NCBI GenBank assembly: GCA_016928995.1
Contig: JAFGJS010000110.1
Span: 25,613-89,612, forward strand
Direction: 5' to 3'
From: Candidatus Sumerlaeota bacterium
GTDB taxonomy: Bacteria > Sumerlaeota > Sumerlaeia > JAFGJS01
Length of the DNA stretch: 64,000 nucleotides
A model generated the notes under the pieces. The model was not told the origin of the DNA, did not search any database, and worked only from the letters and a program-made list of their open reading frames with translations. The position numbers were made by a program, and so were the translations under genes. This document shows, in pieces, positions 17,518 to 46,395 of the stretch; position 1 is the stretch's first letter; each line of letters starts with the position of its first letter.

Positions 17518-19266
17518 TTACAAGTTGCTCATCAGCTGATACAGGTTCTCCCGATCTTGATCAAACCTGGCGAAGGTGAACGCCCTGACGATCTGCCCCT
17601 GTTTGTTCTGCAGCATCAACGTCGGAACTCGATACACGGTGAATTTATTATTGTCGCAACAATACGACACTCCTTTGCCTGGAGTGATCTCCTCGCGATA
17701 GCAGACGAAATTTTCCGCAAGCGTCTGGAAGGAAGCGGAAGCGATAATCCCTTCATCCACCTTTTTGCAGATCCCTATGTCATTTTGGTAGAAATAGAGG
17801 ATTCGCGGTTTGTTTTGCGCCTGAGCCTTGGTCTGCGCCTCCTTGAAGTCAGGCATCCAGGAGACTAAACTTGGATTTTGCAATTGCGGTTGCTGCAACC
17901 CTATCGGCGTCGCGGATGTATAGGATGGATTCACTTTCCGTCCGGCCAGCATTTCAATCTCCGATTGCGTCAACGCGTAGCTGAAGATGTAAAAATCATC
18001 GATCCGGCCGTTGAACAGCGGATCATAAGGCCACTGGCTCTTGCCAAGATAGTTCAGATAGGGCTTGATGTCGAAGGGATCCAGCTCGATGGAGCCTGTG
18101 ATCGCGAGGTTTCCATTGGTGTACATTTTGCCGACGTCATCTTTGATCGAAACGGCCACATGGGTCCATTGACCGGCGAGCAGCGGATCGGTTTCCAGGA
18201 TGTTCTCGACATTTCCCTTTCTAATCACGAAACGCAGCGTATCGCCGCCTGAACGCGGCGTCAGGAGGAAGTACGCATCCGTTCCTGCGCCGAAATCGAA
18301 GATGCGCTGCCAGGGTCCGCCGCCATCCCAGTTAACCCACGCGGCGACGGTGATGTCATGCGAATCGATCAATACCGCGGGCAGCATCACATAATCATTG
18401 GATCCATCTAGAAAGATGGCCTGTCCAGCGTGGCCCATGATAAAGGATATATCGCCGGAGTTGATCCCGTTTTTCGAGTTGATGCTGTCCAACAGGTTGC
18501 CTTCGAAAGCATAGCACGCCACGATGGATTTCAATCCGCCGCTCTGAGACAACGCCGCGACTTCCGATGCCGACAGCGCGTAGTTGTATACTCTAAAGTC
18601 ATCAATGCGGCCATTGAACAGCGGATCGCCCCATTGGCTTTTGCCGATATAATTGTGCACCGGATAAATTGTAGACGGATCCAGCGTGATCGGCTTGGAG
18701 TCGGCGATGGCGCCATTGACATACAGCGTGCCCGTGTCGCCTTCGAGTGTCACCGCGATATGCGTCCATTCGCCGACGGTCAATTCCGGCGCTTCGAGCC
18801 TTTCCTCTTCTTCATAACTGTCGGATGTAATCGCAAAACGCAGCGTTCGCGAAGCGGAACTCGGCGTGAGAAACAGGTATAGAGTCTTGTTGTTCCCGAA
18901 ATCAAAGACACGTTGCCAAGTCCTCTCCCGGCCTTTGCCTCCGTCCCAGTTGATCCATGCCGCGATTGTGATGTCATCCGAATTGGCCACACTGGCCGGC
19001 AGTTGAATATAATCGTCCAAGCCGTCCAGTTCGATTGACTGTCCGATTCGTCCCACGGCATAAACCGGACTGCCAATCGCATTGCCGTTGGCCGATCCGG
19101 CGGCGTCGAACATGTTTTGATCGAATTGATAATGCACAACCAGCTTCATGCTGTTTGCGCCGCCGCTCATGTTTCCTTCGGCGTGGCTGGATGGACATGC
19201 TCCAACCATGATCACTGACGTCAGCATAATCAGCCATGCCTGACGTTCACGGACGGTGTTCCACAT
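17518..19266 (-). CDS. Secreted LamG-LamG-thioredoxin-like protein (paralogue 1)
   Basis: A 582-residue exported protein. The N-terminal signal (WLIMLTSVIMVGAC) may end in a lipobox. Two LamG/concanavalin-like jellyroll repeats follow (about residues 42-240 and 247-440), each with the pattern GLDDYIQLP or GSNDYVMLP, then DDITIAAWINWDGG, WTHIAVTLEGDTGTLYVNG, YIGKSQWGDPLFNGRIDDFR and ALSASEVAAL. The last 110 residues look like a thioredoxin fold: RILYFYQNDIGICKKVDEG and a cis-Pro strand RVPTLML. The first Cys of CxxC is Ile (codon at 17776-17778), so redox exchange is unlikely. The same layout occurs at 44359-46104. LamG domains bind glycans or proteins; the ligand is unknown. Confidence 0.82.
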   Translation of the reverse strand: MWNTVRERQAWLIMLTSVIMVGACPSSHAEGNMSGGANSMKLVVHYQFDQNMFDAAGSANGNAIGSPVYAVGRIGQSIELDGLDDYIQLPASVANSDDITIAAWINWDGGKGRERTWQRVFDFGNNKTLYLFLTPSSASRTLRFAITSDSYEEEERLEAPELTVGEWTHIAVTLEGDTGTLYVNGAIADSKPITLDPSTIYPVHNYIGKSQWGDPLFNGRIDDFRVYNYALSASEVAALSQSGGLKSIVACYAFEGNLLDSINSKNGINSGDISFIMGHAGQAIFLDGSNDYVMLPAVLIDSHDITVAAWVNWDGGGPWQRIFDFGAGTDAYFLLTPRSGGDTLRFVIRKGNVENILETDPLLAGQWTHVAVSIKDDVGKMYTNGNLAITGSIELDPFDIKPYLNYLGKSQWPYDPLFNGRIDDFYIFSYALTQSEIEMLAGRKVNPSYTSATPIGLQQPQLQNPSLVSWMPDFKEAQTKAQAQNKPRILYFYQNDIGICKKVDEGIIASASFQTLAENFVCYREEITPGKGVSYCCDNNKFTVYRVPTLMLQNKQGQIVRAFTFARFDQDRENLYQLMSNL

Positions 19267-44358: not shown

Positions 44359-46104
44359 TTACATTTGCCCCATTCTTTGCATCAGATCAGCTTTATCTGT
44401 ATCGAAATTGTTGAAAACATATGCGCGGAGGATTCTTCCCTGCGCATCTTGCAAGATGAGCGAAGGAATCTGATACACGCCTAACTGGTGATATGTTCCG
44501 CGCGAATAGATCTGTTCGCGATAGCAGACGAACTTTCGGGTCAGATCGAGGAAATCGCCGGCCGAGAAGATTTCTGAATCGATCCTGCGGCAGACCGGTA
44601 CGTTGTCATTGTAAAAGTATAATACCCGCGCTTTTTGTTGATTCAGCGCTTCCGATTCAAATTCCTGGTAGGTCAGTTTCCATGGCACGCTTGTGGGAAT
44701 CGGACCCGTGGCTTGACTTTGCTGCGTTTGCTGCGTTTCTTGTTTTGCGTAATCAGCAGTGGCAGACTGGCTGCTTGTCCCGGCAACGTTTGTATTGCCA
44801 TACGCCAGCGCCGCAACGTCTGATTCCGACAGGGCGACATTGTACACGCGGAAGTCGTCAATCCACCCTCTGAAAAACGGATCGTTGGGCCACTGGCTTT
44901 TCGCGATATAATTGTTGCTCTGAAGGATGTCGGATGGATTCAAGGTGATGCGCCCTGAAACCGCCACTTCGCCATTGACGAATATTTTACCGGTGTCGCC
45001 TTCGAGAGTGACGGCCACATGCACCCATTGCCGCATGGGCAGCGGTCTTGTGGCGTCCAGGGATTGATTGATCTCGTATTTCCGGATGGCGAAGCGCAAA
45101 GCATTGCCGCCGGAGCATGGAGTCAGGTATAGGTATTGATTGGTGTCAACGCCGAAGTCAAAGATGTGCTGCCATTGATTGCCGCCGCTCCAGCTGACCC
45201 ACATGGCGATGGTCATGTCCTCAGAATCCAGCACGCTGTTGGCAAGCCTGACATGATCATCCATGCCGTCCATGCCGATCGTTTGACCGCTGATGCCCCC
45301 GGCAAATATCGGACCGCCCATGGCGACGCCATTGTTTGTTCCGGCGATATCGCGTGCATCGCCTTCGAATTGCATATGCGTGATCAGACTGGACGGTCCG
45401 ATGCTGCCGCTGCCGCTGGCCAGGCTGACCAGCTCATCTTGCGACAGCGCTTGGTCAAAGATGCGGAAGTCGTCAATCAAACCGTTGTAAGGAGGCTCGC
45501 TGCCGTGCCCTTTGCCAATATAGTTTGAGGTTTGATTGATCGCGGTTGGATTGAGCGTGATGCGACGTGAAGCGACCTGAGCGCCATCGACATACAGCGC
45601 TCCGATGTCACCATTGAGCGTGACGGCGACATGCACCCACTTGCCGGAGGGCAACTGGGGGGCGTCGATCGTTTGATTCGTATTGCCTTTGCGGATGCCG
45701 AAGTGGAAAGTATTGCTTCCGGAACTGGGGGTCATATACATTAAATCTCCGGAGCCGGTGTCTCCAAAATCAAAGATACGTTGCCATTGACCGCCGCCGT
45801 TCCAGTAAACCCACATCGCAATGGTCATATCATCAGTAGCGACGACGTTATACGGCAACTCCACATAATCATTCAACGCGCTCAGGCTGATGGCTTGCCC
45901 GATGCAGCCCTGGACGTACTGTGGATTGCCTGAGACACGCGCATGCATCGCGCCCGCGCTATCGATCGTGTTTCCATCAAATTGATAATGCGCGAGTTGT
46001 GCAGTCCAGCCGTTAACACCGCTGATTCCAATCATGACGCCCAAGATCGCAATCGTTTTCATGATCGGGCTTTTCTGTGGTTTTGTGAGATTTTGGATTT
46101 GCAT
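44359..46104 (-). CDS. Secreted LamG-LamG-thioredoxin-like protein (paralogue 2)
   Basis: A 581-residue homologue of the protein at 17518-19266. The signal peptide is the helix IAILGVMIGISGVNG ahead of the first domain. The two LamG repeats share the same landmarks (DMTIAMWVYWNGGGQWQRIF; WVHVAVTLNGDIGALYVDG; NYIGKGHGSEPPYNGLIDDF; and again with SGGNQWQHIFDFGVDTNQYL). A Gln/Thr-rich linker (AKQETQQTQQSQATGP) precedes a thioredoxin-like tail: RVLYFYNDNVPVCRRIDSE and the cis-Pro strand YQIPSLIL. The first Cys of CxxC is Val (codon 44599-44601). ATG at 46104 follows GAGG by 8. Secreted glycan- or protein-binding role is inferred. Confidence 0.82.
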   Translation of the reverse strand: MQIQNLTKPQKSPIMKTIAILGVMIGISGVNGWTAQLAHYQFDGNTIDSAGAMHARVSGNPQYVQGCIGQAISLSALNDYVELPYNVVATDDMTIAMWVYWNGGGQWQRIFDFGDTGSGDLMYMTPSSGSNTFHFGIRKGNTNQTIDAPQLPSGKWVHVAVTLNGDIGALYVDGAQVASRRITLNPTAINQTSNYIGKGHGSEPPYNGLIDDFRIFDQALSQDELVSLASGSGSIGPSSLITHMQFEGDARDIAGTNNGVAMGGPIFAGGISGQTIGMDGMDDHVRLANSVLDSEDMTIAMWVSWSGGNQWQHIFDFGVDTNQYLYLTPCSGGNALRFAIRKYEINQSLDATRPLPMRQWVHVAVTLEGDTGKIFVNGEVAVSGRITLNPSDILQSNNYIAKSQWPNDPFFRGWIDDFRVYNVALSESDVAALAYGNTNVAGTSSQSATADYAKQETQQTQQSQATGPIPTSVPWKLTYQEFESEALNQQKARVLYFYNDNVPVCRRIDSEIFSAGDFLDLTRKFVCYREQIYSRGTYHQLGVYQIPSLILQDAQGRILRAYVFNNFDTDKADLMQRMGQM

Positions 46105-46395
46105 AATTATGCCTCTTCTGTCCTTCGATTCGCCACGCACAATTATGGTTCAAAGCATGGATTAAAACAGTCCTTCCATTTTACCCACATATTAAACACT
46201 ATTTGCTGAACCGATTTCCAGTAAAATACGCTACATGTGTAAAATAATTTCACTTATCGGAAACCGATAAAGAAATATCAATTGAAATCTTCTGCAATTT
46301 TACTCGGGGTAATATTCAAACGAATTCAAACCAAGAATTGCTGCAATCGGTCTTATTCACTGATGTTGCGCACTGCGTCACTCCAGCCGCCAGTT

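Follow-up and report, generated by a model that had tools for sequence, protein, structure and literature searches.

Has a thioredoxin-like domain that lacks the first cysteine of its CxxC motif simply decayed, or has the fold been put to another use? The question is raised by a gene on the minus strand (17518..19266) of the window, the whole 64,000-nucleotide stretch of DNA analysed here.

Domain organization of the protein and its paralogues

The open reading frame is real and encodes a protein of 582 residues (copy 1). Its N-terminus is a signal sequence (residues 1–30 or thereabouts, 19177..19266, assigned by eye) that opens with MWNTVRERQAWLIMLTSVIMVGAC and contains the sequence VGAC, by eye a possible lipobox; pLDDT is low over residues 1–40. 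Laminin_G_3 (PF13385) is matched twice in Pfam, well over the cut-off (E = 7e-66, 221.5 bits against 27.6), giving a first LamG domain at residues 41–240 (18547..19146) and a second at residues 245–441 (17944..18534). Both are seen as jelly-roll strands in a full-length model, followed by a disordered linker (443–466, pLDDT < 50), but the packing of the domains is not reliably readable from this model, which was built from three sequences (pTM 0.43). The flexible linker (residues 443–464, 17875..17940) leads into a C-terminal module (residues 465–582, 17521..17874), which we assign as a putatively non-catalytic thioredoxin-fold domain from its predicted structure, its PDB matches and the class-wide family described below; all of these features lie on the minus strand. 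Residues 470–550 match Thioredoxin_7 (PF13899) close to its cut-off of 27 bits, with 25.4 bits (E = 1.5e-5) by hmmscan and 29.6 bits in a six-frame search, and several relatives of the tail score 32–40 bits.

The tail (465–582) was modelled with AlphaFold2 from a 21-row alignment of relatives, the structure prediction that the initial annotation had proposed as a check, and gave a thioredoxin fold (mean pLDDT 94.4, pTM 0.88). The best matches among solved structures are AGR2 (Z 13.1), DsbD gamma (Z 12.8) and the exported Bacteroides protein 3f9u (Z 12.6). DsbD gamma superimposes with an rmsd of 2.5 over 107 residues, and a profile built from the tail alignment finds PDB thioredoxins with E-values starting at 1.9e-9. 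The order that the initial annotation had read from the letters, a secretion signal, two LamG domains and a thioredoxin-like tail, is therefore borne out by sequence, Pfam and model. So is its reading of the motif: in N-D-I-G-I-C (Ile497–Cys500, 17767..17778) the first cysteine is replaced by Ile497 and the second is kept as Cys500, while the cis-proline, Pro548, lies in an intact YRVPTLML strand. An aromatic and a basic residue precede this proline (Y-R-V-P, Tyr545–Pro548, 17623..17634). Copy 1 alone has a further Cys-Cys pair (residues 536–537, 17656–17661) in an insertion, GVSYCCDNNKF, before the cis-proline strand.

The second copy that had been noted at 44359..46104 (minus strand) is present in the open reading frames and in Pfam, with the same layout and approximately 45% identity to copy 1. 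It probably starts at the ATG at 46104, a few bases downstream of AGAAGAGG, with a GTG at 46140 as the alternative; its thioredoxin module (44362..44700, minus strand), placed by sequence and alignment, carries NVPVC and YQIP. A third copy, on contig C11 of the same genome, has the motif D-V-S-A-C and approximately 240 extra residues separating the second LamG domain from the tail. The three motifs are thus IGIC, VPVC and VSAC, none of them the CxxC of a catalytic thioredoxin or disulfide oxidoreductase. Inspection by eye of the surroundings of the three copies showed no neighbour gene conserved among them.

The initial annotation had suggested counting genomes with this order: three copies occur, all in one genome among the 39 of the class that we searched, and the other 38 have none. 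In a wider contig collection, which may lack entries for the genome of the window and for genomes very close to it, the best 80 loci contained no convincing match to the whole order; nearly all matched the LamG part only, and three Paenibacillus loci aligned up to query residue 528. Pfam, NCBIfam and the literature searched yielded no described family with the order, in agreement with the first reading of the locus. The order is one local outcome of a module that is joined to a wide variety of domains.

The module is widespread in the class Sumerlaeia

The class sample comprised 39 genomes, mostly drafts. At E <= 1e-6 the tail profile matched in 36 of them, with up to 25 matches per genome. 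We fetched the regions of the best matches and classified 95 distinct open reading frames; 67 of them have more than 100 other residues followed by the domain, which stops no more than 20 residues short of the C-terminus. The first cysteine is missing from 66 of these 67 C-terminal modules, an upper estimate for C-terminal thioredoxin domains generally since the profile was seeded with members lacking it. Only the second cysteine is retained in 44 and neither in 22; the only protein with CxxC looks like an ordinary membrane protein. A, P, T, S, G, Q and E make up a mean of 62% of the linker ahead of the module, and a crude signal-sequence rule was positive in 64 of the 67 open reading frames (25 in a shuffled control).

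The N-terminal regions of the 67 proteins fall into 13 clusters without similarity at a blastp threshold of 1e-5, or 12 if the CxxC member is left aside. Besides the LamG pair of the three copies they include 25 Kelch-type proteins, 13 with Golvesin_C or LamG-like domains, a 17-member cluster (the one member scanned had no Pfam match), and smaller clusters with CBM48-like, OB-like and DUF2341-LamG proteins. Tandem arrays of three to four Kelch-thioredoxin genes, with the first cysteine missing, occur at two loci (L194, G034:C56:7000-16500; L185, G030:C106:36500-45500). Two adjacent genes in the window's genome (L209, G000:C31:16000-21000) each have a C-terminal module without motif cysteines, and the N-terminal part of the one that was scanned has no Pfam match.

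Modules of the same type were also found in the middle of proteins. In further fetched genes, modules that are xxxC or lack both cysteines, and that carry Arg or Lys beside the cis-proline, stand at the N-terminus ahead of two domains that by eye resemble CBM48; these N-terminal relatives mostly keep the second cysteine. They weaken the idea of a strict C-terminal tag and show the module accompanying exported binding domains at either end.

A basic residue beside the cis-proline marks the module

Two residues before the cis-proline, Arg or Lys is present in 62 of the 67 C-terminal modules, immediately preceded by Phe or Tyr in 55; in catalytic relatives this place is taken by Gly, Ser, Ala or Tyr. 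The basic residue occurs in 75 of 84 modules that lack the first cysteine, with or without the second, vs. none of nine with CxxC (Fisher p = 5e-8, relatedness ignored), and is kept in all five modules that have lost the cis-proline itself. We take the position to be that of Gly74 in E. coli thioredoxin, beside the active site. In our reading, a basic residue next to the cis-proline would reflect a groove changed from catalysis to binding. The pattern is real and class-wide and has a clear sequence signature.

We compared the tail profile at E <= 1e-12 with 382 genomes of three other phyla. The 39 class genomes gave 129 matches (counted from the listing). The phylum that includes a Pirellulales locus gave 48 from 119 genomes, that of a Verrucomicrobia locus 41 from 115, and that of a Botryobacter (Bacteroidota) locus 6 from 148. 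Among the open reading frames fetched, CxxC is present in 19 of 31 (several cut at an in-frame TGA), 33 of 36 and 6 of 6 respectively, and the basic residue in 4 of 31 from the Pirellulales phylum and 1 of 36 from the Verrucomicrobia phylum. On this three-phylum comparison the module is likely confined to the phylum Sumerlaeota. The in-frame TGA in the thioredoxin-like genes of the Pirellulales phylum lies directly ahead of the x-x-C part of the motif (L232, L238, L239, L241, L243, L246, L248 and L250), as expected for selenocysteine at the first cysteine position.

The LamG domains probably have a separate history

The window's genome (4.5 Mb, 161 contigs) holds approximately 30 LamG stretches related to those of the copies, in some 15–20 open reading frames. 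Among the LamG open reading frames that we looked at, only the three copies carry the tail; contig C12 also has a DUF2341-LamG gene with a more distant one. LamG matches in class-mates do not exceed 34% identity, and within the best 80 loci of the wider search pairs with 34–55% identity are found in Paenibacillus, Verrucomicrobia, Planctomycetes and Bacteroidetes. In this genome the LamG pair is part of an expansion of LamG domains; the thioredoxin tail has the broader distribution. Probably, LamG pairs multiplied in the lineage or were acquired by it, and then joined a resident tail.

Approximately ten long open reading frames in the genome have W-x-[IL]-Y as their exact C-terminus (for example SNWMLY, SRWQIY, QWILY and RWLLY; loci L313, L319, L320, L322, L324, L327, L329, L307 and L303), possibly a short C-terminal tag; several of them encode exported LamG or Ig-like proteins. 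Genome-wide the motif is not above control (25 vs. 26 in a reversed control). Binding of such C-termini by the tail was considered and rejected, with no such end in 209 class-mate open reading frames.

What the module may do

We favour, tentatively and at somewhat less than even odds, a reading of sequence and model in which the tail is a non-catalytic thioredoxin-fold module that many exported proteins carry on a flexible linker, with a putative role in binding or docking. Many of these proteins are of the glycan-binding or propeller type. The module would no longer perform thiol-disulfide exchange; its former substrate groove, altered in shape as the W-C pair was lost and Arg or Lys gained at the Gly74 position, would bind a protein or peptide partner, either in the periplasm or at the cell surface, and the LamG pair would be held or positioned there while binding glycans or matrix. 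Against this, the analysis turned up no partner or ligand and no conserved gene nearby, and the second cysteine present in two thirds of the modules suggests some thiol role in those. The seeding of the profile and the poorly resolved single-domain tree count on the same side. The initial annotation had likewise suggested that the fold is used for structure or ligand binding, as opposed to redox chemistry, and that part gains support from the near-universal absence of the first cysteine and from the basic residue that tracks it. A bolder version, that this dead fold is a general docking or sorting module for exported binding proteins, with one common envelope partner reading the aromatic-basic-cis-proline groove, seems to us unlikely; if true, it would amount to a previously undescribed type of protein attachment system.

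The thiol role could be that of a tether, the second cysteine being linked to a partner, or to a low-molecular thiol, by a mixed disulfide that anchors or regulates the protein. All three LamG-LamG-thioredoxin copies and the 44 C-terminal modules counted above have this cysteine, as do most N-terminal CBM48-type relatives, but the 22 modules without it mostly still have Arg or Lys, and the second cysteine of a thioredoxin fold is normally the buried one; we consider the tether improbable. We give similarly little weight to the module as a structural cap, a stable soluble fold that would aid folding or proteolysis resistance of a beta-rich exported domain and have no specific ligand. Terminal position, flexible linkers, beta-rich partners and a confidently predicted compact fold all suit a cap, but a residue pair conserved next to the old active site would be unexpected in one. 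More doubtful still is a role in sorting or surface anchoring, with the C-terminal domain recognized by an export or attachment machine much as a T9SS CTD is: the extreme C-terminal position in the fetched set, unrelated passengers and several copies per genome fit it, but the module also occurs at the N-terminus and mid-protein, other LamG proteins of the genome have signal sequences without the tail, and no machine was identified.

Recent decay of an active thioredoxin in copy 1, for which the missing CxxC might speak, is highly improbable, since the same cysteine is absent from both paralogues and from relatives of other families in the class, and a conserved segment lies close by which CxxC relatives lack; on these paralogues and relatives we reject recent pseudogenisation of the gene. 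The description of the motif as 'defective' therefore falls: the loss is a family trait common to all three copies and the great majority of class relatives, and intact-CxxC homologues of the sort that would reveal a recent decay were not what these sequences supplied. The missing first cysteine is, as far as the compared sequences tell, an old shared trait. A single-domain tree (101 columns), poorly resolved and showing no single origin, was excluded as evidence for dating the loss.

An odd gene thus leads to a testable class-wide pattern, in which an enzyme fold has apparently been converted to another job on exported proteins of an uncultured phylum. A partner, if found, would explain how these bacteria hold or organize part of their surface proteins.

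Comparison with known systems

Sorting domains of the T9SS and PEP-CTERM types likewise attach a single C-terminal module to exported proteins of many unrelated kinds. They differ from the present module in fold, theirs being served by machines of which none is known here, and the present module also occurs at the N-terminus. Literature searches for an inactive bacterial C-terminal thioredoxin domain or a thioredoxin-fold sorting domain found nothing relevant; as far as we have searched, the fold is known and the family trait and its spread are undescribed.

In NHLRC2 a thioredoxin-like domain sits on a flexible loop beside an NHL propeller and is inactive in an insulin assay (PMC6107167). That family is defined by an N-terminal Trx8 domain, CC(I/V)NC and the propeller (PMC6107167), whereas the tail of copy 1 is C-terminal, has xxxC and accompanies LamG domains; NHLRC2, with CCINC, retains a conserved enzyme-like site and is a single protein, not a mobile module. 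The non-canonical PDIs AGR2 and AGR3 provide the best structural match and, like the module, have one cysteine only. AGR2, which binds a specific peptide (PMC5880107), retains the first (CxxS) and the module the second (xxxC), which places the module outside the AGR family; AGR2 and AGR3 are single-domain proteins of the animal ER with 18% identity to it. Thioredoxin_7 domains of the DsbD gamma and DsbH type are like the tail in predicted fold, export, an N-terminal W and secondary structure, and in a profile match that lies close to the cut-off. The tail scored below the NCBIfam cut-offs for DsbH (22.1 bits vs. 190), TsoB (22.4 vs. 805) and trx7_PDZ_seleno (21.3 vs. 300), whole-protein cut-offs that are hard to reach with the tail alone, as scanned here. 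From Thioredoxin_7 domains of this type the module is set apart by the absence of CxxC, Arg or Lys two residues before the cis-proline and fusion to binding-type domains. The class-wide pattern is a reason for annotators to avoid naming such proteins thioredoxins.
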